Below, one piece after another: positions 985 to 15,526 of a stretch of 23,598 bases of DNA. The notes beneath the pieces are model-generated. The model was not told the DNA's origin. It searched no databases and saw nothing but the letters and a program-made list of their open reading frames with translations. How positions within the stretch are numbered: position 1 is the stretch's first letter; every line of letters starts with the position of its first letter. Made by a program: the position numbers and the translations under genes. Origin of the DNA: a virus. The stretch is from positions 1 through 23,598 of IMG/VR virus record IMGVR_UViG_3300037882_001399; one strand, given 5' to 3'.

Positions 985-1026
985 GACAAGAGATGTTTGC
1001 AAACTACCGAAAGGCCACCCCTTGTC
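985..1026 (-). terminator. Terminator-like stem-loop between promoter and tRNAs
   Basis: On the minus strand, GACAAGGGGTG (1026-1016) can pair with CATCTCTTGTC (995-985) over 11 bp with two G-U pairs, and TTTATTTT follows. This looks like an intrinsic terminator. It begins at the predicted transcription start of the promoter just upstream, so it could end readthrough from the membrane-protein gene, attenuate the tRNA transcript, or be a 5' leader structure. The loop contains the palindrome GTTTGCAAAC. Confidence 0.5.
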
Positions 1027-1062
1027 AATTACTCTTATAAGTGATTCGCTCTAAAAAGTCAA
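1026..1062 (-). promoter_or_regulatory. Sigma-70-type promoter P1 with conserved spacer box
   Basis: The minus strand carries TTGACT (1062-1057), a 17-nt spacer and TATAAG (1039-1034), a near-consensus sigma-70 promoter. The spacer contains TTAGAGCGAATCA, which recurs at the same place in the promoter near 15.5 kb. GACAAGG starts 7 nt after the -10 element in both. The -35 element overlaps the last codons of the upstream membrane-protein gene. It should drive the two tRNAs and the nucleotidyltransferase-like gene. Confidence 0.82.
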
Positions 1063-1629
1063 GAGGGTAATTAATTTTAACATTACGTCAGGTATGTAAA
1101 CAATAAAGGTAGACCAAAGGACCAAACCAAAAGTAAGTTCAGCTACTGTCCAGTTGTTAATAATTTTATTACCAAAAGGTTTTACCCACACACCTACGTA
1201 ACACACCGGCATTAGTAAAGGAACTAGCGCGAGGTAGATTGAAGAGAAAATTAGACCTCCTACAAAATACGCTTGGACTAAAGTAATCGCAGAGAGCCAG
1301 ATTAAACCTCTCAAATAAATAGCTCCTACCCATTTAAGGTAATCTTTATTTAAAATGTAAGTGTCTGTAACTGACTTAAACAAAGCGGGGGCTTGTCCTA
1401 CTAACATCGCAATACCCATAGCTAGTGCGTACTTCCAGTCAGGAATCATCCAGTAAGCGCCCAGACCAAAAAGTAAAGCGTTTATAAACTTACTCGGAAT
1501 GTTAAACGGCTCTTTACCATCTTTCCACAACTGTTTGTACCCACCGCCACGAGCAACATAATTAATAATAGCTCCTACAACTGTAAGAATGATCCCCTTT
1601 TTTATTTGATTTTGTGTTTCTTTTTCCAT
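1051..1629 (-). CDS. Polytopic membrane protein of unknown function
   Basis: A 192-aa hydrophobic protein with about five or six predicted membrane helices, at roughly residues 12-26, 47-62, 66-84, 103-120, 124-148 and 166-188. The short N-terminus is charged (MEKETQNQIKK), and a Gly-rich segment (ARGGGY) follows helix 1. The start ATG has AGAGG 7 nt upstream. The first 28 nt overlap the end of the P-loop gene, suggesting translational coupling. The stop codon is inside the promoter P1 region. I do not recognise the family. It has no obvious transporter motif and is too large for a typical holin, though a role in host membrane modification is possible. Confidence 0.8.
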   Translation of the reverse strand: MEKETQNQIKKGIILTVVGAIINYVARGGGYKQLWKDGKEPFNIPSKFINALLFGLGAYWMIPDWKYALAMGIAMLVGQAPALFKSVTDTYILNKDYLKWVGAIYLRGLIWLSAITLVQAYFVGGLIFSSIYLALVPLLMPVCYVGVWVKPFGNKIINNWTVAELTFGLVLWSTFIVYIPDVMLKLITLLTF

Positions 1630-2108
1630 TGTAAAACCTCTTGAGTTAAATCAGTAATATTGTTTTCTTTATAATCAAAAGTTAAAACATTCTCTACGTT
1701 ATTAGCGAAAATCCCCATTTGATGAGCAGCTCTAGTCGAGAAGTCATCAGAGTGAATACGGCCTGTATCACGTCCAACAACGTTTTTAGAACTAAATACA
1801 ACGGGACAATGAATAATACAATCGTAATTACGCCACAAATCTGAACCAACGCCACCGTAGAATTGACCCATATACGCGCCACCATCTGTAATCCAAATCG
1901 ATTCGGGATTGTTTTTAGCGAGTTCCACATATTGTAATTCCCTTTTTAAGATTTCATTTTGGTCGTTGTACCCAAGTTCTCTTATCACAAACCGAGCTGG
2001 TTCTGGTAAGTACTCAGTTGGGTAACCTTGTAATTTTAAAGTGTAAGCTAAACCGAGGGCTGTTGTTGTTTTACCCGAAGATGGTGCGCCTAGAAATCCA
2101 ATTAACAT
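1602..2108 (-). CDS. P-loop NTPase / kinase-like protein (AAA_28-like)
   Basis: A 168-aa protein beginning with a beta strand and Walker A motif GAPSSGKT (residues 7-14), followed by an amphipathic helix and a YLPEPARFVIRELGY segment. That segment matches the EPAR-type motif of AAA_28/NadR-like P-loop proteins. A strand ending in DGG (about residue 76) may be the Walker B-like position, and NVVGRDTGRIHSDDF looks like the lid with Arg residues. Family members include nucleoside or nicotinamide-riboside kinases, so phosphorylation of a small metabolite is plausible; the substrate cannot be read from sequence. The start ATG overlaps the nrdB stop by one base (TAATG) with GAGG about 10 nt upstream, so it is coupled to nrdB. 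Confidence 0.82.
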   Translation of the reverse strand: MLIGFLGAPSSGKTTTALGLAYTLKLQGYPTEYLPEPARFVIRELGYNDQNEILKRELQYVELAKNNPESIWITDGGAYMGQFYGGVGSDLWRNYDCIIHCPVVFSSKNVVGRDTGRIHSDDFSTRAAHQMGIFANNVENVLTFDYKENNITDLTQEVLQWKKKHKIK

Positions 2109-4036
2109 TAGAACTCAACCTCGTTCCACTCACCTTGTAAAGCGCCTTTACTGTACTCGGTTTCACGATTCTCAAAGAAGTTAGTGTGACCCTTACCGTA
2201 CACAACCCAATCTAACCAAGGAAGAGGATTATCCATCACATTGTAAATCGGGTCTAAACCTAGTTGAGTTAAACGTAAGTTCGCCATGAAACGGATGTAC
2301 TGCTTTACTTCTTCTTTAGTTAATCCTTCAATGTTGTTATTAGCTGTGTTGAACGCGAGGTCTACAAACTTATCTTCTAGGTCTACCGTCTTACGGCACA
2401 TACCTATCAAGTCTTCAGTAACTTTAGTAACTTGTTCTGGGGACAGGTACTCTTTAACAAATTGTTTGTAAAGTTCAATACAACAAGCTACGTGGTCGTC
2501 TTCATCTTTGATAGAGAACTCTACAACTTTACACATACCGTTCATCTTACCAAAGCGACGGAAGTTCATAAGAATAACAAATGAAGAAAACAGTTGTACA
2601 CCTTCAGTGAAAGCGCCGGTGACAGCTAGTTTACGCGCGATGTCTTCGTAAGATTCTGTACCGAACTGTTGAAGGTATTCGTGTTTAGCCGCCATCTCTT
2701 CATACTCGTAAAACGCTTTGTACTCAGTTTCAGGGATACCAATAGTATCTAATAATAAAGAGTAACTCTCCACGTGAATACACTCACGGTCTGCGATATT
2801 AGTTAAACACATAGCCACTTCAGGGTGACCTTTAAACGTGTTAATTAAATCGCCGTAGCCATCTAACACATCACAATTACCTGAGATAGACGTCTTACCG
2901 TTTCTTCGTACCAATAAAAACCCCTCTGGAACGGTTAAACAAACGACGTCACCTTCATATTGAACGATTTCCTGCCCACGTCGAATTGCTTGTCCGTCAA
3001 CTGGGACGTAAGGTCTTAAAGTCACTTTAAACGTATCGTTAAACTTTTCACTACGAGGGTCTGTGTACTGTACGTAGTGACAGGTGTAACCAGCCAATAC
3101 ACCAACAGCTTGTACCATATCTGAGGCTGTCTTGTTGGTATTTGTAAAAATTATTTTACCCCATCTGTCTACATGACTGTCCCAGTGTTGTACCTCTTCG
3201 ATAAACTGACTGGATTTATTTTTTGTAAAAGAGTTTAGATTAACCCAACAGAAATCTTTAGTAAGGTAGTTTTGTTGGTCCAACGGCCAATGTGTTTTAA
3301 AGACACTATAACCCTTTTCATTTACTGTAAAATCAAAACCTATACCTGCGTTGTTTAATAGTTTGTGTAAACGTTCTATCTTACGTTTCTTAGTAAAACT
3401 GAACCAGACAGGCCGGTAACCCAACCGACTACCGTCGGTGTCATTTTTTACATTACCGTCAGCTTGGAAGGCAATCGCTAAACGCTCCATAGGTGTGAGG
3501 TTACTTTCGTCCTCCTGTACCAACACTTTTGAAGGGGCGGTGTGATGTTTGATATTTTGGTAGAACAACATATTTTTAGCGTGAGTAGATTGGTGTACCC
3601 CAAAACGGTCTGTGTAGAACATTTTATGGTTAGGAGTAACTAACAAATCTACATTTCCGTTTATGTCCTTGTAGTGGTACATTTCACCTTGATGTTTGTT
3701 TTTAACGACACGTAGAGGTTTGACGAAACTAAGGGTTCTGTCCATGTCCACCTGAGCTACCGTATCCTCCAAGGTCACGTCTTTGATGAATTTCCAACCG
3801 AATGGGGTCAGGACTTCAGTGTCATCACTAAAGCAATCAGTTTGAGTAAAAAAGCGGAAGATTTGTGTGAGGAGTACGCGCTCATCTTCTGTCAATCTTT
3901 TGTGCCAGTCAGACACATCGTCACTTAATTGAATCTCTTCAGGTACCCAATGTTTAGCTTGGTGTTTCTTGTAAATCGCAAACATTTGTGGGTATTTAAA
4001 CGGTTTGTAAAAACCTCGTGTATCTAATAATTTCAT
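2108..4036 (-). CDS. nrdB: Ribonucleotide reductase class I small (beta) subunit, intein-containing
   Basis: The 642-aa precursor consists of a 322-aa NrdB extein interrupted by a 320-aa intein (residues 68-387). Removing the intein joins FFTQTD to CDVLDGYGDLI. Ligands align with E. coli NrdB: D67 (D84), then ECIH with E418 and H421 (E115, H118), the radical Tyr Y425 four residues after the His, Glu in FTEGVQLF, and E-x2-H in DEDDHV. These appear complete, so the spliced enzyme should hold a di-metal/tyrosyl cofactor. It provides the radical for NrdA, converting ribonucleotides to deoxyribonucleotides in the cytoplasm. The ATG has GAGGAG 10 nt upstream. It sits directly after a methyltransferase gene that separates it from nrdA. 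Confidence 0.96.
   Translation of the reverse strand: MKLLDTRGFYKPFKYPQMFAIYKKHQAKHWVPEEIQLSDDVSDWHKRLTEDERVLLTQIFRFFTQTDCFSDDTEVLTPFGWKFIKDVTLEDTVAQVDMDRTLSFVKPLRVVKNKHQGEMYHYKDINGNVDLLVTPNHKMFYTDRFGVHQSTHAKNMLFYQNIKHHTAPSKVLVQEDESNLTPMERLAIAFQADGNVKNDTDGSRLGYRPVWFSFTKKRKIERLHKLLNNAGIGFDFTVNEKGYSVFKTHWPLDQQNYLTKDFCWVNLNSFTKNKSSQFIEEVQHWDSHVDRWGKIIFTNTNKTASDMVQAVGVLAGYTCHYVQYTDPRSEKFNDTFKVTLRPYVPVDGQAIRRGQEIVQYEGDVVCLTVPEGFLLVRRNGKTSISGNCDVLDGYGDLINTFKGHPEVAMCLTNIADRECIHVESYSLLLDTIGIPETEYKAFYEYEEMAAKHEYLQQFGTESYEDIARKLAVTGAFTEGVQLFSSFVILMNFRRFGKMNGMCKVVEFSIKDEDDHVACCIELYKQFVKEYLSPEQVTKVTEDLIGMCRKTVDLEDKFVDLAFNTANNNIEGLTKEEVKQYIRFMANLRLTQLGLDPIYNVMDNPLPWLDWVVYGKGHTNFFENRETEYSKGALQGEWNEVEF
2876..3835 (-). 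other. Intein in NrdB (320 aa) with LAGLIDADG-type endonuclease domain
   Basis: The in-frame insert starts with Cys at 3835-3833 (block A CFSDDTEVLTPFGW) and ends SISGN before Cys+1 at 2875-2873. Block B is TPNHKMF and block F VVCLTVPEGFLLVRRNG. A DOD-type endonuclease is suggested by LAIAFQADGNV (block C) and AVGVLAGYTCHY (block E), both somewhat diverged, so nuclease activity is uncertain. All splicing residues (Cys1, block B His, terminal Asn, Cys+1) are present; the penultimate residue is Gly rather than the usual His. The insertion lies immediately after metal-ligand Asp67. Confidence 0.93.
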
Positions 4037-4037
4037 C

Positions 4038-4568
4038 TTATAGTAACTCCTCTGGTACTTGGTTATCTACTGGGTCAAGTTTGATGTTAGTTAAGTCCAC
4101 TAACGGACCTTTCTTAATGACAACAAAGCCAAAACTTACACCTAACTCAGGACTAATATCTACAATGTCTTGACCTCTAAAGATTTGTACGATGTGTTCG
4201 GGGTCTAAACGCCAATAATCGTCTGGGTAAGCGTGACGACCTTTACGTTTTGAACAGAGAGTGCAGATGAAAGCGCCGTCAGTTCTCAGTACGGTCCAAA
4301 TACCTTGGATGAACTCGCGCCAATTACGAACGTGCTCTAAAGTTTCACACGAGATAACCGTACCCACATCTTCTGGGTAAAAGTGTTTGGGTAAATCTTC
4401 TCCTGGTAAAACCATATCTACGTCTTTACCTTCTCTCATGTCGATACCAAAATTCACGTTAACAATATCGCGGATGGTCCCGTTGACATTTAATGAACCG
4501 ACTTCCACGGTGTACCCTTCGACAAGGTGTTTGAACTTTGATACGTAATCTTTAATTCCTTGGTGCAT
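4038..4568 (-). CDS. Class I SAM-dependent methyltransferase
   Basis: A 176-aa protein with the Rossmann methyltransferase pattern: motif I region VEVGSLNVNG (about residues 21-30), an acidic strand end FGIDMREGKDVD, VISCETLEHVRNW as the motif IV/V-like region, and VLRTDGAFICTLCS as the strand after a helix. The ETLEHV signature is typical of the Methyltransf_11 group, which methylates small molecules or sugars. The SKRKGRHAYPDDYWRLDPE stretch is characteristic of phage and glycan-cluster relatives. It lies between nrdA and nrdB: its Shine-Dalgarno site (GAAGGG) is inside the last codons of nrdA, and its stop is 1 nt from the nrdB start. The substrate is unknown; DNA or nucleotide modification would fit the context, but nothing in the sequence proves it. 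Confidence 0.85.
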   Translation of the reverse strand: MHQGIKDYVSKFKHLVEGYTVEVGSLNVNGTIRDIVNVNFGIDMREGKDVDMVLPGEDLPKHFYPEDVGTVISCETLEHVRNWREFIQGIWTVLRTDGAFICTLCSKRKGRHAYPDDYWRLDPEHIVQIFRGQDIVDISPELGVSFGFVVIKKGPLVDLTNIKLDPVDNQVPEELL

Positions 4569-4574
4569 TTTTAT

Positions 4575-7343
4575 CTACCCTTCACAAGCTAAGCAAGCTG
4601 AATCTTCCGGCTTACGTTCAGTTGAAATTTGCCCAATGTACTCTGGGCGCGACATTGCGGTTGAACGACAGTAATACAAAGTTTTCAGACCTTCTTTCCA
4701 AGCGTTAAAGTGAACCTTGTTTAAGTGGTTTTTATCACAATCTGCGTAGAAGAATAGATTGATTGACTGCCCTTGGTCAATAGTCTTTTGTCTGTCACTC
4801 GCGTGTTTTACAATCCAGTTCTGGTCTAATTCGTAAGCGGTCTTAAATACATCTTTATCCCAACTATCCATCCACTCTAAGTGTTGAACAGAACCTACGT
4901 TAGTAATGATAGAAGTCCAAGTAGCGTCGTAATTCTGGTCTTTGTACTTAGTCTTCAGTAAGTGGTCGAGGTGTTTATTCTTGATTAAGAGCGAACCACT
5001 CTTAGTATCTTGACGGAAACCATTCGAAGTGTAAGGCTCTACAGAAGGTGAACACTCCCCGCAAATATTTGAGATACTGGCGTTTGGGGCGATAGCTTGT
5101 GTGTGACTAAAGCGGTGACCAGTACCTTCCATATCTGGGGCTTCTCCGCGCTCAGAACCTAATTTCAAAGAAGCTTTATCAATCTCTGTACGTAAGTGAG
5201 AGAAAATCTTAGTGTTTTGGTAAGCCGCAGTTACTGATTCAAAAGGTGTACCATTGCCTTGTAAATAGGAATGAAATCCCATAGCACCTAAACCAATGTC
5301 TCGACCCATACGCGCTGAGAACTTAGCTTTAGACAGATAGTCAGGAGCGTTACGGAGGAAGTGTGAAAGGTTGTTATCCAAGAAACGGCAGATGTCTTCA
5401 ACGAACGTTGGGTGTTTCTCCCACTCACTAAACTTCTCTAGGTTTACACTTGATAAACAACAAACAGCTGTCCTCTCAGTATTAGTAGGTAATAAAATTT
5501 CACAACAATTACCAGTAACTACCCCATTAAACATAAGTTTATGACGTTTGGGTTCTGTAGCGCAGAAAGTTTTATCCACACGCCCCGTAACCTCAACTCT
5601 ATCAACTTTCACAAAGCGAGAAGCGTCTCTATTTGGGTGTTGGTTAGGTTGTACGTTTAGTCTGCGGAACTCGATACCTAGGTCTAAGAGACGTTTTACC
5701 CCAAAACTGTTGATATTTAACATCCAAACCTCTTTACAAGAGAATAAACCGTTCTCCCCAGTACCGTTGTTCAAAGGCAGTAAATACTTACCTTCGGCTC
5801 TACGAGTAAATAAAGAACTAGTTACACCCATCTCTTGTAACATAAGTACAATGTTTTGGAGCAAACCATGATTTACCGAGGTTAGTTGAATGTTTTGACT
5901 GTGGGTGCTCTGTACCACACACGCGTCTGCGTCTAAAAGACCGGCTAACCATTTCAATCTCGAGTTTAAAGAGTACTTAGAGGGTGTTTCGTTCTTGGTC
6001 AAAGACATTGGTCCGTGGTTCCATCGAGCGCGACCGTATGAATCAAAGTCACCGACAGTCCCTAGGTCAAGGTGTGGAATTACGTCTTTTTTAGGCTCGT
6101 AAACCCATGAATGTTCGTAATCGGCGTTACCGTCACCCGACCAGAAACCGTGGGCGTAAGGATGTGGGAGTTCTTCCGTACCGTAAACAAAGTCTTGCGG
6201 GAAGGATTCTGCTTTCTCTATTTTCATACCAGGTAAGAGGTCTTTAGCTTCAATTACTTCGAGAGGTTTGTGGTAGTCTGTTGAAATATAGAATTTGTGG
6301 TAAGGGGTACAATCCAACGTTGTACCTGTGTTGAGGTGTACCCGGATAAGTTCAGATGACTCCGAGGTTTGTCTAACAGTTACTTCGGACCATTCAGCGC
6401 CGTTCCAAACATCTAAAGTTTTATCTTTCAATGTTGAGATTGTTTTATAACCTTTTTTAGTAAATAAAAGTGTCTCAGGAGCTACGCAAAGGTTTGATTG
6501 GGTAACTTTAAGACCTTTATCTTTCAAAGGTTGTTTTACCGCGCGGTTAGTTGTGTCTGTGAAGTGTAAGTAAGGTTCACCTGTTTGAGTGCGGGTCTCT
6601 AGGATTTTAAACCACAACTCTCTAGCTTTCATTGTTTTCTTAACTTGTTTAGAGTTCGGGTCAACTAAATCCCACGTACCATCTTCTTTAACGGCTTCCA
6701 TGAAACTGTCGGGGATGTTAACTGCGTGGTGTAAGTTAAGACACTTACGGTCAATCGAACCACCAGAAGGTTTGCGCATAATCAAAAACTCTTCAATCTC
6801 TGGATGAGAGATGTCTAAGTAAGCAGCGAAAGCCGCGCGACGAACTTTACCTTGTTTAGCAGCTAATTGTAACGAATCGTCTACTTTCATAAAAGGGATT
6901 AAGCCGGTGGTCATGTTGCCCGAGCTTGTCATCTCACCTTCAGAACGGATAGCTGAGTAATCAGTACCTACACCGCCACCCATTGTAGATAACCATAGGT
7001 TTTCAGCCCAGTGGTCAGCTAAATCTTTACGTGAGTCACCCACAACATTTAAGAAACAAGAGATACCTAAGTTCTTGGAGCAACCAATATTAGCTAGGAT
7101 TGGGGTAGCTGCCATAAACCAGTGTTGGCTCATGTAGTCGTACAAACGTTGAGCGTGTCCAGCGTCGTCAGCTAGCTCTGTACACACACGTGCGAATACT
7201 TCTTGGGCGGTTGTCTCACCTAAACCGAAATAGCCCCCTGAGAGTACTTGTAAACCAGCCTTGGTCATTAGAGTCTCTCTGTCTGGAACTACTCGGATTG
7301 TAATTCCGTTGTTTACATTTGTGTAGAGCTGTGTGTTCGTCAT
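4575..7343 (-). CDS. nrdA: Ribonucleotide reductase class I large (alpha) subunit, intein-containing
   Basis: The 922-aa precursor contains a 595-aa NrdA extein and a 327-aa intein (residues 286-612). The extein has no N-terminal ATP-cone, so it is short compared with the roughly 760-aa E. coli enzyme and probably lacks dATP overall-activity inhibition. Visible catalytic parts are C96 in GISCFLNVVGDS (C225 equivalent), the N-L-C-C-E motif formed after splicing (N284, thiyl-radical Cys C613, E615), C628 (C462 equivalent), the LYY radical-transfer tyrosine pair, and the C-terminal CLAC redox pair (C917, C920) that accepts electrons from thioredoxin or glutaredoxin. The start ATG has AAGGA 5 nt upstream, after a 90-nt gap in which I see no convincing promoter. 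It works with NrdB and probably the thioredoxin-like protein at 16.2 kb. Confidence 0.96.
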   Translation of the reverse strand: MTNTQLYTNVNNGITIRVVPDRETLMTKAGLQVLSGGYFGLGETTAQEVFARVCTELADDAGHAQRLYDYMSQHWFMAATPILANIGCSKNLGISCFLNVVGDSRKDLADHWAENLWLSTMGGGVGTDYSAIRSEGEMTSSGNMTTGLIPFMKVDDSLQLAAKQGKVRRAAFAAYLDISHPEIEEFLIMRKPSGGSIDRKCLNLHHAVNIPDSFMEAVKEDGTWDLVDPNSKQVKKTMKARELWFKILETRTQTGEPYLHFTDTTNRAVKQPLKDKGLKVTQSNLCVAPETLLFTKKGYKTISTLKDKTLDVWNGAEWSEVTVRQTSESSELIRVHLNTGTTLDCTPYHKFYISTDYHKPLEVIEAKDLLPGMKIEKAESFPQDFVYGTEELPHPYAHGFWSGDGNADYEHSWVYEPKKDVIPHLDLGTVGDFDSYGRARWNHGPMSLTKNETPSKYSLNSRLKWLAGLLDADACVVQSTHSQNIQLTSVNHGLLQNIVLMLQEMGVTSSLFTRRAEGKYLLPLNNGTGENGLFSCKEVWMLNINSFGVKRLLDLGIEFRRLNVQPNQHPNRDASRFVKVDRVEVTGRVDKTFCATEPKRHKLMFNGVVTGNCCEILLPTNTERTAVCCLSSVNLEKFSEWEKHPTFVEDICRFLDNNLSHFLRNAPDYLSKAKFSARMGRDIGLGAMGFHSYLQGNGTPFESVTAAYQNTKIFSHLRTEIDKASLKLGSERGEAPDMEGTGHRFSHTQAIAPNASISNICGECSPSVEPYTSNGFRQDTKSGSLLIKNKHLDHLLKTKYKDQNYDATWTSIITNVGSVQHLEWMDSWDKDVFKTAYELDQNWIVKHASDRQKTIDQGQSINLFFYADCDKNHLNKVHFNAWKEGLKTLYYCRSTAMSRPEYIGQISTERKPEDSACLACEG
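5508..6488 (-). other. Intein in NrdA (327 aa) with LAGLIDADG homing endonuclease
   Basis: It starts with Cys at 6488-6486 (block A CVAPETLLFTKKGYKTI) and ends VVTGN with Asn at 5510-5508; the next residue, Cys+1, is the thiyl-radical cysteine of NrdA. Block B is CTPYHKF. Two endonuclease motifs are clear: HGFWSGDGNA and LAGLLDADACVV. Block F (KTFCATEPKRHKLMFNG) matches the RNR-type intein C-terminus. Complete motifs suggest splicing is active and that the endonuclease may be too. Confidence 0.95.
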
Positions 7344-7433
7344 AGTAGTCCTTACAACTATTAAGTTAAATATTTGAAATAGATAGATTTTTACCTACTA
7401 GGGGTTTACTAGAGGCGGTGTCGTTGTAATACC

Positions 7434-7946
7434 TTACACGTCTTTTTTGGTATTCACAAGTTCCCGTTCTAACTCGTTGATAAATAGAAGGGAGCAAATA
7501 GCTGCTTCTAAGTGGGTCTCTGTCGGGTGGTCCGAATCAAATAACTCACCGTTGTAGTACGAGGTTAAATGTCTTAAAGCCGCGCTTAAATAGGTTGTCT
7601 TAAAGGTTTCACACTTACGCCAATTATCTTGAGAGTATTTCTCAGCGCCGTGTTGTAAACGTCGGGCTACGAACTCAGTAGTTAAAGGGAAACCTAGAAG
7701 TTGGTGGAGAGGCGCTTTACCTTGGTCATGTTTAACAAAACCTTCCTTTTTACATTTACACATATTCCACTCCTCTTTCAAATCTGTTGTTCCTAAAACT
7801 CCAGACACTTTTATGTTTGTAGGTTTACCACAATCTTGACAGAACGTTGTCTCTCTGGTCTGGCCCCAGTTCAACTTCTCCTCGTCAGATAGGTCTGATT
7901 TAAAAGGAGGTAGGGGTGGGTACCGGAAATTAGGGACGATTGACAT
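7434..7946 (-). CDS. DUF5664-type dATP/dGTP diphosphohydrolase with N-terminal zinc ribbon
   Basis: In this 170-aa protein the C-terminal 100 residues carry the DUF5664 pattern: KHDQGKAPLHQLLG, FVARRLQHGAEKYSQDNW, YLSAALRHLTSYYNGE, and a HLEAAICSLLFINEL helix. This MazG-superfamily group includes phage enzymes that hydrolyse dATP/dGTP to monophosphates. Upstream is a Cys pair CQDC (36, 39) and CKC (63, 65), likely a small zinc site, preceded by a Pro-rich segment (YPPLPPF). The ATG is preceded by AAGGAG with 6-nt spacing. It is the gene immediately before nrdA, consistent with dNTP pool control. Although relatives (MazZ) work in 2-aminoadenine phages, no PurZ is visible here, so the role is probably ordinary pool adjustment. 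Confidence 0.82.
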   Translation of the reverse strand: MSIVPNFRYPPLPPFKSDLSDEEKLNWGQTRETTFCQDCGKPTNIKVSGVLGTTDLKEEWNMCKCKKEGFVKHDQGKAPLHQLLGFPLTTEFVARRLQHGAEKYSQDNWRKCETFKTTYLSAALRHLTSYYNGELFDSDHPTETHLEAAICSLLFINELERELVNTKKDV

Positions 7947-7956
7947 TTTACGCTCC

Positions 7957-8223
7957 TTAATGAATGGTTGGGTTAGTTAAAAGCTTTTCTAACATAGCGA
8001 TGTCCTGTGGGGTTACCCGTCGGTTTAATAGTTTCAACCGTATCTCACACGCCATAACAATTCGAAGTAAAGTGTCACTGATAGCCGTGAACACTCCTAG
8101 TGCTACAGAAGTTAACCCAAAGATAAGTAAGAGTAACCAAAGGGGTAGTCTAAGAGTGTACTTCAGAATCTCTATAAGTAGGTTCTTGATTCTCGTCTGT
8201 GTTGTCGGTTGTAAATATTCCAT
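7957..8223 (-). CDS. Small membrane protein
   Basis: An 88-aa protein with one long or two close hydrophobic helices at about residues 18-50 (LPLWLLLLIFGLTSVALGVFTAI), flanked by basic residues and followed by a soluble tail (RVTPQDIAMLEKLLTNP). The ATG has GGAG 6 nt upstream. Its first 74 nt overlap the end of the upstream gene in another frame. No family is recognised. A holin-like role cannot be excluded on size and topology, but it sits in the nucleotide and replication region, away from any visible lysis gene. Confidence 0.65.
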   Translation of the reverse strand: MEYLQPTTQTRIKNLLIEILKYTLRLPLWLLLLIFGLTSVALGVFTAISDTLLRIVMACEIRLKLLNRRVTPQDIAMLEKLLTNPTIH

Positions 8224-8605
8224 AGTAAACTCCAGGGATTTGAATTAAAGTTTGTTTAAAAGGTTTAGGGCGAACCCAGTTCTTCCCTTGGTGGGAAGTT
8301 TGTAACGCTTCAAAGAAGTTGTCAATAGTCTCCAATACATCCCAAGGGTTTTTACCTACTGCGTAGCAATACGAATCAAAGACAGATGTACAGAAGAACT
8401 CAAGAGCAGCTTCCCTATCTGAGTTACCCGGATTAGCCCCCACAATATCTTTCACCGCTTGATCAATAATCGTACGAATAAAAGTTATGTCTCTTTGGTC
8501 TTCTTCCGAGCGCCGGGCTCTTTCGAAGAAGTCGAACTCCGCTTTGAAGAGGCCGTTGTTGTAGAGGAACGTTTTGACGCCCACACTTTTATCTCTTTTT
8601 TCCAT
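8150..8605 (-). CDS. Conserved phage hypothetical protein, start uncertain
   Basis: Up to 151 aa. The core FIRTIIDQAVKDIVG...DREAALEFFCTSVFDSYCYAVGKNPWDVLETI resembles a small conserved phage family of unknown function with the pattern IIxQAxxDh...AxxFhxS...hCxxxGxxPxxV. The first 40 codons overlap the end of the endonuclease I gene by 121 nt. The ATG at 8605 has no well-spaced Shine-Dalgarno site; a GTG seven codons later is an alternative. The last 74 nt overlap the next gene. The C-terminus is acidic and polar, likely disordered. No catalytic motif is seen. Confidence 0.7.
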   Translation of the reverse strand: MEKRDKSVGVKTFLYNNGLFKAEFDFFERARRSEEDQRDITFIRTIIDQAVKDIVGANPGNSDREAALEFFCTSVFDSYCYAVGKNPWDVLETIDNFFEALQTSHQGKNWVRPKPFKQTLIQIPGVYYGIFTTDNTDENQEPTYRDSEVHS

Positions 8606-9006
8606 TCTTCAGGTAAATCATATCCTATACACCATTTAAACCCGTTACGGTTACACCAGTCACTATACTTCATCTTCTTAGCTTTTGTCAACCAGTTGTC
8701 CCTCATCAAGACTAGACGTAAGTCTAACTTGGGGTAAGTGGCTTTAAAAGCTTTTAAGTGTCTGCGAGTGTCTTGGTCTAGGACCCCTTTTGTCTCTAAG
8801 AGGAAGGGGCCCACCAACCAGTCGGGGGTGTAAGAATACTCGACTTTGTACTTAAAGGAGAACGGTTCATATTCGTAAGGTATTTTTTCAGAAAGTAAAG
8901 TACCTTCAAAACCGTCTTCAAATTTACTCCGTCGGTAAGGTGCTGTCTTCTTCAAGTTTGAAGTACGTTTCCGTGATGTCTTCGACTTTGGGTTCTTTTG
9001 CGACAT
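8485..9006 (-). CDS. Endonuclease I-like Holliday junction resolvase (T7 gp3 family)
   Basis: A 173-aa protein. The core RRSKFEDGFEGTLLSEKIPYEYE followed by YTPDWLVGPFLLETKG matches T7 endonuclease I. Predicted catalytic residues are E30, D62, E71 and K73 (T7 E20, D55, E65, K67). The family cleaves branched DNA, resolves recombination and packaging intermediates, and helps degrade host DNA. It is longer than the 149-aa T7 protein: an N-terminal Lys/Ser/Thr-rich extension and a tail of about 35 residues rich in Ser, Thr and Lys. The tail coincides with the 121-nt overlap with the next gene, so its low complexity may result from overprinting. The start overlaps the exonuclease gene by 83 nt without a clear Shine-Dalgarno site. 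Confidence 0.92.
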   Translation of the reverse strand: MSQKNPKSKTSRKRTSNLKKTAPYRRSKFEDGFEGTLLSEKIPYEYEPFSFKYKVEYSYTPDWLVGPFLLETKGVLDQDTRRHLKAFKATYPKLDLRLVLMRDNWLTKAKKMKYSDWCNRNGFKWCIGYDLPEEWKKEIKVWASKRSSTTTASSKRSSTSSKEPGARKKTKET

Positions 9007-9865
9007 GGGTTAAAAACTTAGCTCCGTTAGAGTATTTGAATACGCGGAGACCCGCGCCGTTATTTGAATCACCCCAACAAAGTTGTTTATGGGGGCAGTA
9101 CTGACACATCTTAGGTAAAGATTTATTACCGTTATCTTCTACAACTTCCTGGTAACAGCGTTCAGGAGGCGTATCTTTCTTTAACATCTCTTTTAAGTAA
9201 ACAATACGAGCCGCCGCGTCAATCTCTTTATGTTCTGGAACGTGAGTGATAGCGAGTTGACCGTTGTTCTTATTAATAGCTAGGAAAGCACCTTGAGGAG
9301 CACCCGTAGCTTGGGTATACCCCGAGATTTGTCCGATGTACCCGTAAGGATCATCGCCGTTAACCAAAGAGTTTGTCTGGAACTTCTTAAAGCCGTAATC
9401 AGAAGCAGTTTTCACATCTACTAAAGCACCGTCAATAAAAGCGTCTAAGTGGCCCACTACACCTTCTAACTCTACTTGGGCTTGTTCGTGCTCTACAATG
9501 TGTCCAGCTTCTCTCACCAAACACAACATAACCGCTTCAAGGATGTGACCGAGTAAGAAGTTTAATAGTTCTTTACCACTCATTTTGTGAGTAGGTGATT
9601 CTAAACGTAAGTCGTACCAAATCTTTCTATCTGGTAAACCAATCTTAGACATACGTAAGTAACGATTCCCTTCACCACGAGAATCCTCCAACGCGCGTTT
9701 GACTGCTAGTTGAACATCGTCCGCCATTCTTTGTAAGTGAACAGGGTCTGCGAGTGTTGGTTCTTCTAAACGTTTGTACACATCTTGAGGGATTGTGTTT
9801 ATACTTTTTGGGTATTGAGTTCGAGAAATAACAGCTCGGTTCAAATCATCGTAGTCGTAACTCAT
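8924..9865 (-). CDS. Cas4/RecB-like PD-(D/E)XK exonuclease with four-Cys cluster motif
   Basis: A 313-aa protein. The nuclease core shows GHILE (H107, E110), GHLDAFIDG (D141), VDVKTA (D150, K152) and YIGQISGY (Q179), the order seen in RecB/Cas4 nucleases (H, D, D/E-x-K, QhxxY). C-terminal cysteines C237, C254, C257 and C263 (last three as CxxCx5C) are spaced as in Cas4/AddB-type 4Fe-4S clusters. The likely role is a 5'-3' or end-processing exonuclease in recombination and host DNA breakdown, filling the place of T7 gp6, which is absent. It lies between the ssDNA-binding protein and endonuclease I genes. The ATG lacks a good Shine-Dalgarno site; TCCTCC actually precedes it. Confidence 0.9.
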   Translation of the reverse strand: MSYDYDDLNRAVISRTQYPKSINTIPQDVYKRLEEPTLADPVHLQRMADDVQLAVKRALEDSRGEGNRYLRMSKIGLPDRKIWYDLRLESPTHKMSGKELLNFLLGHILEAVMLCLVREAGHIVEHEQAQVELEGVVGHLDAFIDGALVDVKTASDYGFKKFQTNSLVNGDDPYGYIGQISGYTQATGAPQGAFLAINKNNGQLAITHVPEHKEIDAAARIVYLKEMLKKDTPPERCYQEVVEDNGNKSLPKMCQYCPHKQLCWGDSNNGAGLRVFKYSNGAKFLTHVAKEPKVEDITETYFKLEEDSTLPTE

Positions 9866-9898
9866 TGGAGGATACTTTCTTTTAAAGTTAATTATCTA

Positions 9899-10468
9899 CT
9901 ATTTAGCAGCTTGTTTGTAAGAAGGTATTTCAAACTTCTTCTTAGGAGTAAATGTATTCGTCGGTTTCTTATCTTCATAAGGAACTAAACTAATAACTTG
10001 TACGTCCATTAAAGCTGGGTACTTCTTACCGTTTGGTGCGGTGTCGTTTGGTACCCAAATCTTAACTTTAACGTCTGAGCCGTTACCGATAAGTTGTTCA
10101 ATGTTGAAAGGCGCACCCTCAGCGTCAAAAGCTTTCGGACGTGAAGCGTCTACGTCACCATTTTTTACTTTACGCTCTAAACGTAAGTAAGGTGATTTAA
10201 TATCGTCACGTGCTGGGTTAACAGTCAAGCCAATGTTTTGGGCAATCTCTTGACCTTTCGCACTTAAACCTAACTCCATACGGAATTGTGGTTTAATTTC
10301 TTCAACGGTACCATCTTTTTTCTTGATACTTGTCAAAGGGTCTTTCAAGCGGGTGTAGTAAGCTTTACCGTAAAGAGTGTAGTACCCTTTATTCTCGTCA
10401 CCACGTAAAGTAGATTTGTTGTGTTCTACTGGACCGTTTGTTGTTTTTTGATAAGTGTTGTTTTCCAT
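9899..10468 (-). CDS. Probable single-stranded DNA-binding protein (gp2.5-like)
   Basis: A 189-aa protein of mixed charge. The segment LIGNGSDVKVKIWV matches the IGNGS...V motif common to phage OB-fold ssDNA-binding proteins, and the middle part (GYYTLYGKAYYTRLKDP, PYLRLERK) provides the aromatic and basic residues expected of such a surface. Its position next to DNA polymerase and exonuclease agrees with the role. Unlike T7 gp2.5, the C-terminus (FEIPSYKQAAK) is basic, not acidic, so contacts with polymerase and helicase may differ, or the family may be a different one. Upstream purine-rich AGAAAGAAA serves as a weak ribosome site. Confidence 0.75.
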   Translation of the reverse strand: MENNTYQKTTNGPVEHNKSTLRGDENKGYYTLYGKAYYTRLKDPLTSIKKKDGTVEEIKPQFRMELGLSAKGQEIAQNIGLTVNPARDDIKSPYLRLERKVKNGDVDASRPKAFDAEGAPFNIEQLIGNGSDVKVKIWVPNDTAPNGKKYPALMDVQVISLVPYEDKKPTNTFTPKKKFEIPSYKQAAK

Positions 10469-10505
10469 CTGATTTCTTTCTATCTAATAAATATGACGTC
10501 GTGCG

Positions 10506-12557
10506 TTAGTGCACATCCGCCCAACTCTTCCCTTCGTGGCCGTCGGCCCCTAGAGGACAGAGAAGTCCGTATTCCTCACCAGTTTCAATGATACATTGTT
10601 TGGCGAGGTCTAAAACATCTTGAGCTAAAGATTTAGGTGCGTCAAAGACAAATTCGTCGTGAACAAAATTCGTAATAACAACGTCCCAACCTTTCCACTC
10701 AAAAAACTTTTGTATCTTACACATAGCTGTCTTCATTACAATAGCTTCACCTGATTGTAAATACACAGACAAAACTTTGTGTGGTTTATCGTGCTCTAAT
10801 TGTATACGTCTACCGTCTAAAGCTTCGAACCAACCTTTACGGTAATCTTCGCGACATTGACCGTCAATCAACTGACGTAACGCGGGAATACGATTAAAGA
10901 AATTCTCTTTAACTTCTCGACCACTACGACCAGTAATTTGTTGTATCTTCTTGTCACCGGCTCCGAGTAAAAAGGCATAGTAGAACGTCTTAGCTTTACT
11001 TCTACCGCGCCACTCAAACCCTAAATCTTTACCGAACTCTTTCTCTAAAGCTTCTTCAACTGAAGGAACGTAACCTAACATCGCGCGAGCTACATCTTCA
11101 TCTAAGTGTTTTAAACCACCTGGGTCAATACCAGCCGCAAACATATTATACGAGTGAATGTCTTGAGCGATAGTAACTTCAGTGTAAACCGGGTCTTTCA
11201 TATAGTGACAGAGGATACGTCCTTGAATACCAGAAGCGTCAACACCTACAATCACTCTTTCCTCATTTACTCTGTAAGGATGTTTAAGGTGAGTTGTTTT
11301 AGTTAAGTCAGGAACTGTCCAGAATGAACGACACTCTTTACCGTAGAACGGCGCGTCAGCTGCGGGAATGTTACCCATATTAGGTTTCTGGTGGGCACAC
11401 CGGTGAGTTCTAGCACCTAGAGATTGTATTACCCCGTGAACACGACTGTCTTCCGGTGTACAAACATCTAACCACTGTTTAATCATGTTAGCGCGTGAAC
11501 GTAATACTAAGTAAGCCGCAATCTTCTTAATAGAATCAGGGGCACTCTCAGGAAGTGTTTGTAAGTTCTCTTCGTCAGATACAATAGGTGACCCACGGTA
11601 AATACCTTTAGCTTCCATTTGCGGAGTAGCTTTACGGAAGTTAACTGGTTTCCACCCCGCTTCGTTTAAACGCTCAACAATCTGTTCGGGCGAACCTGGA
11701 TTAAAGTCTTCCCACACGAGTGGACAGAAATCACCCATAACGTTATCAGGGGTAATACCAAAACGGATAATAACTTTACGAGATACTTCTGACATATCTT
11801 GGTAAGTGTGGTACACTTGATTAAGTTTACCAGTCTCAGGATTACGTGCTTTTATTTTATTACCGTCAGGGTCGGTCTTGGGGACTTTGATTGTCTTTGT
11901 CTTGATTCGGTAACTACCGTTATCGCCATCCCACCCTTGTTTAGGTTTGGCAGGAAAATCGTTACGGAAGCCCAATTCAAGAACTCTGAGTTGCTTTTCA
12001 ATGGTATCGTATAAATCAGACGCACTTTCTTTGTCAAAATAAAAACCTTTCTGTTGTGAACGATTTAAAATCCATTGGGTTTTGTGTTCAAGTTCAATAG
12101 AGAAATCGGACGTACCTTCTAACTCAAACTTCAACATATCGTAAACCCGATAGTTAATCTCTACGTCTTGACGACAGCGGTGTAACATAGCGGGAGAGTA
12201 CACGTCCCATTCATCGTGTTTAGGTTTATCTACACCTACCTTTTTACCAAGGTTATCTAGACCGTGACCACCCAAACGGTGGTACTGAGCCATTTTCGAG
12301 AGAATTAAAGTATCGGTTATTTTAGAAGAATCCAAAGGAACTTTTAATAGTTTGTGAATAACTAAGGGTAAGTCGTACCCAAGGAAGTTGTGGCCTACAA
12401 TTTTATCGGCGTTTAAAAGTAATTGTTTTAATTCGTTTGAGTAACACTGGTTCTGTGTAAATACGTGCTCTTTTTTTGTGCCGTACTCTTGAAACACCGC
12501 ACAGTGAACTTTAGTGGGGTTAAGACCGTTAGTCTCAAAGTCGCCAATTAAAATCAT
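10506..12557 (-). CDS. Family A DNA polymerase (T7 gp5-like) with 3'-5' exonuclease
   Basis: A 683-aa protein from ATG 12557, preferred over an upstream TTG at 12590 because MILIGDFETNG is the natural beginning of the exonuclease domain and AAGGA lies 11 nt before it. Exonuclease residues D6 and E8 start motif I; GHNFLGYDLP and a C-terminal CRQDVEIN motif complete it. The polymerase domain has motif A VGVDASGIQGRIL (D440), motif B RSKAKTFYYAFLLGAG (R519, K523, Y527 region) and motif C VHDEF (H633, D634, E635). The steric-gate Glu of T7 (E480) is Gln here (Q445). It is the replicative polymerase, working with the primase-helicase downstream of promoter P2. A terminator-like hairpin precedes it. 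Confidence 0.97.
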   Translation of the reverse strand: MILIGDFETNGLNPTKVHCAVFQEYGTKKEHVFTQNQCYSNELKQLLLNADKIVGHNFLGYDLPLVIHKLLKVPLDSSKITDTLILSKMAQYHRLGGHGLDNLGKKVGVDKPKHDEWDVYSPAMLHRCRQDVEINYRVYDMLKFELEGTSDFSIELEHKTQWILNRSQQKGFYFDKESASDLYDTIEKQLRVLELGFRNDFPAKPKQGWDGDNGSYRIKTKTIKVPKTDPDGNKIKARNPETGKLNQVYHTYQDMSEVSRKVIIRFGITPDNVMGDFCPLVWEDFNPGSPEQIVERLNEAGWKPVNFRKATPQMEAKGIYRGSPIVSDEENLQTLPESAPDSIKKIAAYLVLRSRANMIKQWLDVCTPEDSRVHGVIQSLGARTHRCAHQKPNMGNIPAADAPFYGKECRSFWTVPDLTKTTHLKHPYRVNEERVIVGVDASGIQGRILCHYMKDPVYTEVTIAQDIHSYNMFAAGIDPGGLKHLDEDVARAMLGYVPSVEEALEKEFGKDLGFEWRGRSKAKTFYYAFLLGAGDKKIQQITGRSGREVKENFFNRIPALRQLIDGQCREDYRKGWFEALDGRRIQLEHDKPHKVLSVYLQSGEAIVMKTAMCKIQKFFEWKGWDVVITNFVHDEFVFDAPKSLAQDVLDLAKQCIIETGEEYGLLCPLGADGHEGKSWADVH

Positions 12558-12592
12558 TTTAGACACTATCCTTCTACTTTTACGAATCAAAA

Positions 12593-12622
12593 TCCACGTT
12601 TTTGTTCAAGTCAGAACGTGGA
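12593..12622 (-). terminator. Terminator-like hairpin between MazG and DNA polymerase genes
   Basis: TCCACGTT and AACGTGGA form an 8-bp perfect stem with a 14-nt loop. On the minus strand TTTTG follows the second arm, a weak U-tract. It lies in the 106-nt gap before the polymerase start. A poor promoter candidate (TTTACA 12661-12656, 17 nt, TACATA 12638-12633) is immediately upstream. It could partially terminate or control polymerase expression. Confidence 0.45.
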
Positions 12623-12663
12623 AACTGCTATCTATGTATCAGACTTTATGGAGATTGTAAAGC

Positions 12664-13047
12664 CTAATAATTCTTACCGTGTAAGCGCGGACGACTACGA
12701 TTATACTCAAGTTTCTCTTGTACAATCTGATCGATGTCGATGTCGAACGCACCTACATAGTCAAGAATACGGATTAACGCGTCAGCTAACTCTACCCATT
12801 TACCTTCGTAGTGAGAGAGTTTGTCGTCGTTTAATTTCTTACGGTCAGCTTCTAAAGCTTCTGATAACTCTGAGTGGATAAGGGCTAACACTTCCCCAAA
12901 GTTACGTTGGCTTGGGTCAAACTCAGCTACAGTATCCACACAACGACCATCGTCTTCACGTACTGGCACTGGAACCGAATAACCATCCCAGAAACCTTTT
13001 TCTTGGGCTAGACCGAAACATTCTTTAGCTAATTTGTTTAAACTCAT
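12664..13047 (-). CDS. MazG-like nucleotide pyrophosphohydrolase
   Basis: A 127-aa protein. The MazG helical pattern is clear: EVLALIHSELSEALEADRK gives the EExxE-type metal site, and GKWVELADALIRILDYVGAF supplies the second acidic motif (E-L-A-D-A). The ending KLEYNRSRPRLHGKNY is typical of phage MazG proteins (NxxRxxxHGK). The family hydrolyses (d)NTPs to monophosphates, and in phages is thought to adjust nucleotide pools or (p)ppGpp signalling. The ATG overlaps the stop of the upstream small gene (ATGA), so the two are coupled. Confidence 0.9.
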   Translation of the reverse strand: MSLNKLAKECFGLAQEKGFWDGYSVPVPVREDDGRCVDTVAEFDPSQRNFGEVLALIHSELSEALEADRKKLNDDKLSHYEGKWVELADALIRILDYVGAFDIDIDQIVQEKLEYNRSRPRLHGKNY

Positions 13048-13265
13048 TTGATGTTCACTTTCTCTTGAAGTTGTTTACTCATTTCTTCTAATTCAACTAG
13101 AAGCTCTTGCGCCATACCACCTAAACGTGTTTGACAATTCTTTAGTAAAGAGTGGAGTTCGGTGACATCCATTCCTCCTTGGTGTGCTTCTGTAGACAGC
13201 GCGTCACGTATGTCGGTAAAGAAACGTAAAGCTCGTAAAGTCTTATCGTGGTTCTTAAACTTCAT
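13044..13265 (-). CDS. Small helical protein, unknown
   Basis: A 73-aa charged protein, likely two helices; the C-terminal part (AQELLVELEEMSKQLQEKV) looks like a coiled coil. ATGA overlaps on both sides connect it to the 51-aa gene upstream and MazG downstream, a tight three-gene unit. The family is not recognised. A helper role in replication is possible only from position. Confidence 0.75.
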   Translation of the reverse strand: MKFKNHDKTLRALRFFTDIRDALSTEAHQGGMDVTELHSLLKNCQTRLGGMAQELLVELEEMSKQLQEKVNIK

Positions 13266-13417
13266 CGGTTTAACTCCTCTTTAAAAGTTTCTAGGATTTT
13301 AGTGACTGCTCTTCTCATATTCGCCACAGCTAAGTCTTGAACACGTTCTGTATACTCAGCCATGTCGTTAGAGGTAAATTTTAAAATTAACTGCTCTTCA
13401 AAAGTTAGGTTAGCCAT
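13262..13417 (-). CDS. Short helical protein (51 aa), unknown
   Basis: Found by reading the gap between the primase-helicase and the 73-aa gene. It begins MANLTFEEQLILKFTSND and ends FKEELNR, charged and helical throughout with no Cys and no membrane segment. The ATG at 13417 is 2 nt after the primase stop codon, and its TGA overlaps the next ATG (ATGA). The exact fit between two genes, and a composition like its neighbours, support it as real although the Shine-Dalgarno site (GCGAG) is weak. No family recognised. Confidence 0.75.
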   Translation of the reverse strand: MANLTFEEQLILKFTSNDMAEYTERVQDLAVANMRRAVTKILETFKEELNR

Positions 13418-13419
13418 TT

Positions 13420-15315
13420 TTAACTCGCTTTCTTGTACGTTTGGTTAGAGTTGCCTTGGCCTTCTTTGGCCCCGGGTTTCTTGTAGAACATATCGTCGTC
13501 AATGTCGTTTACTTCGAACATATCCCCAGAGTGTGATTGGAACTCAATGAAACCAGCGAACCCACACTCACCACCGAAACGGTTCTTACGAACTGTTAGA
13601 CGTGTGATGTTCTTTAAACGCGGGTCATCGTTACGTTCTTTGTTACGTTCCATGTAGATATAAAGGTGTACTAACTTCTCAATGTTACTTGTCCCTCTAA
13701 TCTCATCGTTACGATTAAGGTGGGCTACCATAGCTAGACGAACACCGGCTTTAGCGACGAAACTTTGTAAGCGCGTGGCGATCATATCTAACGCTTGACG
13801 CTCATCGTTGTACCGTTGGTCAGAAGTAATCATAGAGATGTGGTCTAAGATAATTGTTTTACACCCGAACTGGATACTCAACTCACGGATTTTACGTTCG
13901 AGGTACTCAAAGTCTTGAGAGCCACTACCTTCAATCTTAAAGATACGGTTCTTAAGGTCGTACTTATCGATAACAGATTCTACTTCTTCTCGTGTCCACT
14001 TTACACCAGGTAAGCGAATACGTTTGTTTAAGAATAGACCAGCCAAATCTTTGAGGGTAGTACGTGTGTTCTCCTCAAGGATAATCAATCCGATTTTTTC
14101 ATCAGTGTTCATAATTAAATGTTTGATGATGGCTTTAAGAATAGCAGATTTACCTTGACCGGTTTGAGCAGTCCAGCAACTAATTTCACCTTCACCCCAG
14201 CCGTAAGTCATCTCTTGTAAAGATGGGAAAGGGTAAGAGATACGTGTCTCATCAACTTCAGAGAACATCTCTTCCCACAAGTTCTCCCCGTAAAGGATAC
14301 CTTCTGGACACATCTTCTGGGCGTTGTAGAATAAACTCTTGAACTCGCGGTCAAAACCTTTAGTGAGGTAATCGTTAATGTCCCCAATGTTTTCCGCTAA
14401 GTTAATAAACTTCCAACGGGTGTAATCTGCGTACTCCATAATCGCGCTTAACGAAGAACGTCCCGCGTCATCTGGGTCAAAACAGAACACTACTTCTTTA
14501 AATTGGTCGATGTATTGGATAGTGCTTTGGATTGTTTTCTTAGCTGATTGGGCCCCGTTAGAGAGGGATACCACAGGAATAGAGCCACCCAACATTTGAA
14601 AAGCTGATAGCGCGTCTAGTTCCCCTTCAACAATAAGAATAGATTTCTTGTCGTTAGGTGGGAATAAGTTCTGACCGTAAAAAGCTTTAGAGGGAACTTT
14701 ACCGATAATAACACGATTCTCTGTAGATTTGTTACGGAGTTTCTGGCCGATTAAGTGGCCTTGTTGCGCGTCACTGTAGTTGTAAATCTCAGTGATACCT
14801 TTACCGTCTTCACGTAATTCCATGTTGTAGAACTGACGGGTCTTAAGAGAGATACCTCGGTAATCGTGGTCAAACTTTGTACCGAACGTAGGGTTAAATG
14901 GTAAATCTTTAAGAGAGATAATTTTAACTTCTTCCTCTTCTTTAACAACTTCTAGTTCGTCTTCTAACACCACTACTTCATTCTCCTCTAATTCAAAATC
15001 TTCATAATCTTCAATGAACTCTTCTTCAACAACAACAGCTGTTTTAGTTCCCATTACTTTGTTTTCATTAGATGATACTAAATGATTAACCACTTTACCG
15101 TTGTTGTTAAGGAGGATGTCGTAACCGAGTTCTTTAAACTCTTTTTGTAAACGGCTCTTGCCACAAGCGAAACAATGTGATTGCCACACGGGACCGAACT
15201 TTGGGTGACTGTTAAGGTAAAAGGCGTTACCGTCTGAGGAACCACAATCCCCACAAGGTACGTGAATGAGCGAGTCAATCGCTTCTGTCTCAATATTTTT
15301 ATTGAAGGCGTACAC
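13420..15315 (-). CDS. Primase-helicase (T7 gp4-like)
   Basis: A 631-aa protein. The N-terminal zinc domain has C21-x2-C24 and C48-x2-C51. A primase (Toprim) domain follows with LIVEGELDALSAFQ and FCFDPDDAGR. The C-terminal DnaB-like helicase has Walker A TGQGKS and Walker B TIILDHISM. It makes primers and unwinds DNA at the fork. A very acidic linker of about 35 residues (97-131, mostly Glu, Asp and Val) lies between zinc and primase domains, making the protein longer than T7 gp4 (566 aa). The start is GTG at 15315: AAGGAG sits 8 nt before it, after a leader of about 175 nt from promoter P2. An internal ATG at codon 88 could give a helicase-only form as in T7, but no good ribosome site is seen there. 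Confidence 0.96.
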   Translation of the reverse strand: MYAFNKNIETEAIDSLIHVPCGDCGSSDGNAFYLNSHPKFGPVWQSHCFACGKSRLQKEFKELGYDILLNNNGKVVNHLVSSNENKVMGTKTAVVVEEEFIEDYEDFELEENEVVVLEDELEVVKEEEEVKIISLKDLPFNPTFGTKFDHDYRGISLKTRQFYNMELREDGKGITEIYNYSDAQQGHLIGQKLRNKSTENRVIIGKVPSKAFYGQNLFPPNDKKSILIVEGELDALSAFQMLGGSIPVVSLSNGAQSAKKTIQSTIQYIDQFKEVVFCFDPDDAGRSSLSAIMEYADYTRWKFINLAENIGDINDYLTKGFDREFKSLFYNAQKMCPEGILYGENLWEEMFSEVDETRISYPFPSLQEMTYGWGEGEISCWTAQTGQGKSAILKAIIKHLIMNTDEKIGLIILEENTRTTLKDLAGLFLNKRIRLPGVKWTREEVESVIDKYDLKNRIFKIEGSGSQDFEYLERKIRELSIQFGCKTIILDHISMITSDQRYNDERQALDMIATRLQSFVAKAGVRLAMVAHLNRNDEIRGTSNIEKLVHLYIYMERNKERNDDPRLKNITRLTVRKNRFGGECGFAGFIEFQSHSGDMFEVNDIDDDMFYKKPGAKEGQGNSNQTYKKAS

Positions 15316-15376
15316 TACTTTATCTCCTTAAGTGTGTCTAAATGTTTTAAGTGACAAGGGCAGGGTTTGATACCTA

Positions 15377-15481
15377 CTACTTATGGCTCTTACGGATTAA
15401 CCTCCTACTGCTATGCGTGCATACCTCACAATAGAAGGCAAAGTTCCTTATCCGTACTAAACTAAATGTGTCCTTCCACAT
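15377..15481 (-). CDS. Possible leader peptide ORF (34 aa) upstream of primase-helicase
   Basis: The ORF starts with ATG only about 9 nt after the predicted transcription start of promoter P2, and encodes a 34-aa basic peptide (begins MWKDTFSLVRIRNF) with a CEVC pair. AAGG is too near the ATG for a standard ribosome site, so translation would be nearly leaderless. The start codon lies in a small hairpin (ATGTG/CACAT). It could be a leader peptide or chance. The rest of the 15316-15490 leader contains an unused AGGAGG and no other clear gene or tRNA. Confidence 0.3.
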   Translation of the reverse strand: MWKDTFSLVRIRNFAFYCEVCTHSSRRLIRKSHK

Positions 15482-15489
15482 CGCCTTGT

Positions 15490-15526
15490 CGAGTAATTGT
15501 ATAGCTGATTCGCTCTAATTTGTCAA
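15490..15526 (-). promoter_or_regulatory. Sigma-70-type promoter P2 with conserved spacer box
   Basis: The minus strand has TTGACA (15526-15521), a 17-nt spacer and TATACA (15503-15498). The spacer contains TTAGAGCGAATCA, identical to P1 near 1.04 kb, and GACAAGG follows the -10 element after 7 nt as in P1. It begins just after the HNH gene stop and should drive the replication genes starting with primase-helicase. Confidence 0.85.

Follow-up and report, generated by a model that had tools for sequence, protein, structure and literature searches.

Two distant promoter-like sites of a marine phage, P1 and P2, carry the same composite of a −35 element, a 13-nt spacer box, a −10 element and a predicted transcript start. 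At roughly even odds (a probability of about 0.5), we read them as two copies of one promoter cassette for the host RNA polymerase, in which a regulator site inside the spacer is combined with a transcript-protecting helix at the 5′ end of the RNA. Both sites were found in a virus record of 23,598 bases (41% GC), analysed over its full length and called the window below; its predicted genes all lie on the minus strand.

A cassette repeated at two promoter-like sites

The ungapped alignment of P1 and P2 (Table 1) reads TTGAC[TTT/AAA]TTAGAGCGAATCA[CT/GC]TATA[AG/CA][AGTAATT/ATTACTC]GACAAGG. The spacer is 17 nt long in both sites and holds the box in equal register. Identity falls into four sharp blocks (5, 13, 4 and 7 bases) set apart by near-random letters; the non-conserved stretches are the 3 nt 5′ of the box, the 2 nt 3′ of it and the discriminator, and the similarity ends beyond the limits of the cassette. 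GACAAGG follows 7 nt past the −10 element in both cases, which is the usual start distance for sigma70. The first-pass annotation had both sites right in coordinates and letters (TTGAC followed by T or A, a 17-nt spacer, TATA, the common box and GACAAGG); they read on the minus strand. Its label of sigma-70 promoter fits the −35 element and the spacer length but not the −10 element: a standard consensus scan rejected P1 and P2 because neither hexamer (TATAAG, TATACA) has a T at position 6. Judged by their letters, the two are plausible as sub-consensus sigma70-type sites, neither being a strong match.

By itself, a repeated 13-mer is not notable: the window contains 25 of them, and TTAGAGCGAATCA occurs exactly twice. 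The whole cassette is another matter. P1/P2 is the top 45-nt ungapped direct repeat of the window, with 34 identities in 45 positions against 31 for the runner-up, and none of 400 dinucleotide shuffles of the window reached this value (maximum 33). When promoter-like pairs lying on the same sequence were compared across 174 sequences (2.15 Mb, made up of related phage and genome loci together with the window), P1/P2 was the only pair to share 13 of 17 spacer bases; no other exceeded 12. The similarity of the two cassettes is real and non-random. Another phage contig also carries two promoters with partly shared spacers (12 of 17 bases; L010:2220 and L010:8440).

A separate peculiarity concerns the stretch from the −10 element to the start, where GAGTAATTG of P1 (1034-1026) is the exact reverse complement of CAATTACTC of P2 (15499-15491), both on the minus strand; GAGTAATT is absent from the rest of the window. 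The pair GAGTAATTG/CAATTACTC looks like a micro-inversion or a coincidence.

Table 1. Positions in the window of the two cassettes, their predicted RNA structures and neighbouring features.
Feature	Coordinates	Strand	Remarks
P1 whole site	1062-1026	minus	
P1 −35 element TTGACT	1057..1062	minus	
P1 spacer box TTAGAGCGAATCA	1042..1054	minus	plus strand: TGATTCGCTCTAA
P1 −10 element TATAAG	1034..1039	minus	no T at position 6
P1 predicted transcript start GACAAGG	1020..1026	minus	5′ arm of terminal helix
P1 leader hairpin	985..1026	minus	42 nt, 11 bp, closed by CUUGUC (990-985)
tRNA-Ser(tga)	884..973	minus	first gene downstream of P1
tRNA-Trp(cca)	802..875	minus	downstream of P1
P2 whole site	15526-15490	minus	
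P2 −35 element TTGACA	15521..15526	minus	
P2 spacer box TTAGAGCGAATCA	15506..15518	minus	
P2 −10 element TATACA	15498..15503	minus	no T at position 6
P2 predicted transcript start GACAAGG	15484..15490	minus	5′ arm of terminal helix
P2 leader RNA domain	15353..15490	minus	138 nt, multibranched
T7 gp4-like primase-helicase	13420..15315	minus	first gene downstream of P2; Shine-Dalgarno AAGGAG, GTG start
Family A DNA polymerase	10506..12590	minus	in the primase-helicase operon
P3, TTGACT-16-TATAAG	20459..20486	minus	comparison site without box and GACAAGG
TGATTCG, 11 sites	1042, 7533, 8372, 11903, 12583, 15506, 15793, 16312, 18173, 18200, 20243		

Gene neighbourhood

P1 and P2 occupy two of the few non-coding gaps in a one-strand, tightly packed gene array, with functional modules just downstream of each. 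P1 overlaps the end of the ORF at 1051-1629, whose TAG stop codon lies inside the box, and is followed by the tRNA genes. P2 has an HNH endonuclease gene upstream of it and is separated from the primase-helicase gene by a 175-nt leader. This leader contains an open reading frame some 34 codons long (15481-15377, minus strand), which begins about 9 nt past the predicted transcript start; it has no usable Shine-Dalgarno site and is probably not translated. The third site, P3, does lack both the box and GACAAGG, as had been noted at first (TTGACT at 20486, a 16-nt spacer and TATAAG); the division into two promoter classes drawn from this single site is a guess. P3 is directly followed by an 8-bp inverted repeat, TTGAATCC/GGATTCAA (20458-20413, minus strand), with two GANTC sites inside.

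A terminal helix at the predicted 5′ ends

In the predicted RNAs of both P1 and P2, GACAAGG forms the 5′ strand of a terminal helix. The first-pass annotation had suggested that the shared GACAAGG might matter for initiation or transcript stability; its role as a helix arm is new, and the second of these suggestions thereby gains real support. The P1 hairpin folds with −15.7 kcal/mol (z −2.96). The P2 domain, with about −44 to −46 kcal/mol (z −3.66 to −3.80), is closed by a perfect 7-bp terminal helix, GACAAGG/CCUUGUC, the 3′ arm of which spans 15359-15353. Given the G as +1, nucleotides 1-6 are paired with a probability of about 1.0 in both RNAs; with the first seven bases held fixed, 1 of 500 shuffled P1 leaders and none of 500 shuffled P2 leaders paired equally well, although most of these fold statistics, like the helix argument itself, are post hoc. 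CTTGTC appears by chance in 2.8% (P1) and 1.25% (P2) of shuffled leaders, and occurs only five times on the minus strand of the window, two of these being in the P1 and P2 leaders. The closing CUUGUC arms lie outside the 45-nt repeat, yet are kept in both leaders. As the two structures have unrelated interiors, what they have in common is the terminal helix.

In E. coli, base pairing of the 5′ terminus is known to hinder decay that depends on RNase E (work cited in PMC3997798). The most economical role for the terminal helix would be to stabilise the transcript in this way. A terminator scan called no intrinsic terminator after the P1 hairpin. The P2 leader was also considered as a tRNA-like element, given a cloverleaf-like closing stem and a stacked hairpin resembling a T-arm, and this was rejected as weak; ARAGORN reported a ‘tRNA’ there only when introns were permitted or the threshold was lowered, and a comparison with Rfam gave no hit that reached the threshold or had a credible E-value.

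Further copies and the possibility of plain duplication

Exact and relaxed searches of IMG/VR revealed no further copies of the composite, nor did searches of genome contigs or, by DNA similarity, of annotated phages. Two looser scans returned 16 and 6 loci, which were discarded as chance matches: none had TTGAC and TATA together and none repeated the cassette. No DNA-level relative was detected among 50,697 phage records, and single-protein searches with the primase-helicase and the polymerase found no close relatives. The polymerase is 35-38% identical to those of cobaviruses and other distant relatives and about 33% identical to its IMG/VR neighbours, and the alignment of the ribonucleotide reductase (RNR) reached 47% identity. 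Among those distant relatives, no promoter pair with a shared spacer was found. Since no close relative was found, the absence of further copies says little; with a record of no more than 23.6 kb, and nearest polymerases that are only 33-38% identical, the search is not a forceful one. Looking for more copies in the genome or in relatives, as proposed in the first-pass annotation, thus neither refutes nor supports its reading of the motif.

With two copies in all, and none found in a relative, the cassette may be a recent duplication rather than an element conserved for long. A short promoter cassette would then have been copied within the genome and have partly diverged, and the box would have no function of its own. 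The two copies do stand in a single continuous 45-nt register and the interiors of their RNA helices differ, as expected for such a history; promoter-stem-loop cassettes (PeSL) of T4-like phages, moreover, mediate gene shuffling according to work cited in PMC4503421. Plain duplication accounts less well for identity that is confined to blocks with near-random letters between them, and for closing CUUGUC arms that are present in both leaders although they lie beyond the repeat. We regard it as unlikely, yet as an alternative to be taken seriously.

The spacer box and its possible reader

On the plus strand, the box (TGATTCGCTCTAA) consists of a core, TGATTCG, followed by CTCTAA. No other heptamer of the window is as strongly over-represented as TGATTCG (11 occurrences against 2.0 expected), and only 2 of 100 simulated genomes reached its top z value. 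With both boxes masked, it still ranks second of 6558 heptamers (9 against 1.9). Within coding sequence it is found 8 times against 1.5 expected, a count reached in none of 1000 synonymous-codon shuffles, and it occurs there in all three reading phases. Most of the other GANTC variants tested are not enriched.

That the box is a site for a regulator, as first proposed, is supported indirectly by its fixed register, by the sub-consensus −10 elements and by the over-representation of TGATTCG. The site stays putative, and its reading by a regulator unproven; Pfam and PHROGs recognised no regulator gene in the window. Given the sub-consensus −10 elements of both sites, any such regulator would most likely activate.

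A repressor might instead shut both operons in one phase, with the box as its operator, comparable to phage operators placed within the spacer between −35 and −10 elements. The fixed register and a spacer position that overlaps the polymerase footprint would suit it, but the 13-mer has no dyad symmetry, no repressor-like gene was recognised in the window, and weak −10 elements are better suited to activation. We therefore consider a repressor operator doubtful.

The best named candidate for an activator, albeit of low probability, is GcrA, a sigma70 cofactor of Alphaproteobacteria that activates transcription in a methylation-dependent manner and for which TGATTCG (YGAKTCK/YGAKTCG) is reported as the extended methylated motif (PMC7987155). 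In an alphaproteobacterial host, the GAATC (GANTC) of the spacer would be adenine-methylated and GcrA would activate the weak promoters. The extended motif YGAKTCK is present, as TGATTCG, in both spacers; the same word is the top over-represented 7-mer of the window and enriched in its coding sequence, and a GANTC adjoins the −10 element of P3 as well. Among annotated phages, those with the most similar polymerases mostly infect Alphaproteobacteria, and alphaproteobacterial phages that use host CtrA are known (PMC9437464). These points have to be weighed against several others. A GANTC falls into a 17-nt spacer by chance in about 3% of cases, and the motif was spotted in hindsight; most TGATTCG sites lie within genes, where activation of promoters by GcrA does not explain them. 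Neither enrichment of TGATTCG nor depletion of GANTC or a class-wide GcrA signal was found in the phage’s relatives, and the spacers of 202 predicted promoters of relatives showed no enrichment of GANTC (7 against 5.9 expected). A survey of phage genomes likewise reported no asymmetry of GcrA sites (PMC9437464). A GcrA/CcrM-type site is accordingly a shade more doubtful than the repressor operator. In a fuller version, both operons of a lytic marine phage, for replication and for tRNAs, would be controlled by the methylation-dependent cell-cycle cofactor GcrA through the spacer TGATTCG, each such promoter would be coupled to a 5′ helix, and the phage would keep the word over-represented across the part of its genome that is sequenced; this strikes us as improbable. 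If GcrA did read the box, phage replication would be tied to the host cell cycle, and the phage offers a concrete, cheaply testable case for the question of whether phages exploit host epigenetic control of transcription.

Origin and phage-polymerase readings

P2, and with it P1, might be a replication origin comparable to the promoter origins of T7, where DNA synthesis is primed by the transcript from the promoter; the leader would then be the primer RNA. P2 does lie in the largest gap, upstream of the primase-helicase and polymerase genes, and its leader is strongly folded, but the cassette at the tRNA operon is not obviously an origin, and we hold this reading to be very improbable. Promoters for a phage single-subunit RNA polymerase, the least credible proposal, were rejected: the replication genes are T7-related, and box plus TATA (in P1, CGAATCAC-T-TATA) resemble the T7 promoter core, CGACTCACTATA, but the initiation bases directly past TATA, which such enzymes require, differ between the two sites (AGAGTAATT against CAATTACTC), a conserved TTGAC stands 3 nt upstream of the box, and no ORF of the window is an RNA polymerase.

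Proposed mechanism and known designs

Under the reading that we prefer, a cassette for the host RNA polymerase, both copies would be used by that enzyme; no gene for an RNA polymerase was detected in the window. Weak sigma70-type −35 and −10 elements would be assisted by the fixed 13-nt spacer site, read by a shared host or phage regulator, with activation as our main reading of the box. The transcript would start with GACAAGG, which would pair with the downstream CUUGUC to give the nascent RNA a fully paired 5′-terminal helix. As a result, expression of the replication operon from P2 would coincide with that of the tRNA operon and the genes following it from P1, and the 5′ ends of both transcripts would be protected. 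If this is right, one compact cassette could be enough for a phage in which no RNA polymerase is recognised to coordinate separate modules, the spacer box setting the control of initiation and the 5′ helix the fate of the transcript.

Such a cassette varies known regulatory designs rather than adding a new kind; promoter, box and 5′ helix are used together, twice. The promoter early stem-loop (PeSL) of T4-like phages also joins a sigma70-type promoter to a stem-loop and is repeated at intergenic places. Its stem-loop is the terminator of the preceding gene, whereas the stem of P1 and P2 is transcribed first, at +1, and P2 has no U-tract; the window holds two cassettes, and none is carried by the related genomes examined. 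GcrA/CcrM promoters of Alphaproteobacteria are likewise sigma70-type sites with TGATTCG in the promoter region, whereas P1 and P2 are phage-borne and have, in addition, the conserved CTCTAA half of the box and the start helix. The stabilising stem-loops in the ompA and papA leaders of E. coli are paired from, or almost from, the first base of the transcript. By comparison, P1 and P2 place one stem sequence in two phage transcripts with unrelated interiors, one opening with a 138-nt multibranched domain (P2) and the other beginning with tRNAs (P1). The stoperators of mycobacteriophage L5 are a 13-bp asymmetric word found at promoters; the box differs in having only two copies, both fixed within a promoter spacer, and no lysogeny genes were recognised in the window.

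In gene order, the phage resembles the cobaviruses (Zobellviridae: SIO1, P12053L, ICBM1), with which it shares the succession of a T7 gp4-like primase-helicase, a polymerase, a hypothetical protein, a Cas4-type exonuclease, T7 endonuclease I, a nucleotide pyrophosphohydrolase and RNR, along with the lack of an RNA polymerase, as stated for SIO1 (PMC6775973). It differs from them in a polymerase that is only 35-38% identical, in RNR genes of the NrdA/NrdB type with inserts, and in the presence of tRNAs and RtcB; no shared-spacer promoter pair was found in the cobavirus genomes examined.

Other features of the window and its relatives

The RtcB RNA ligase gene (18071-19291, minus strand) occurs in a phage genome that also has tRNAs, and a role in tRNA repair is possible. 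Both RNR subunits (4575-7343 and 2108-4036, minus strand) have large inserts: that of the large subunit is a LAGLIDADG intein, and that of the small subunit is probably an intein too. A putative adenine DNA methyltransferase of 187 aa (16435-16998, minus strand) shows EPCAGKG and NPPY motifs, matches phrog_799 (1.3e-35) and is nearest to that of podophage Lau218. In cobavirus genomes (L091, L090, L093), GCGCTGGG-like words are strongly over-represented through the coding sequence on both strands, as with CGCTGGG in ICBM1 (12 against 1.1), and are possibly Chi-like.
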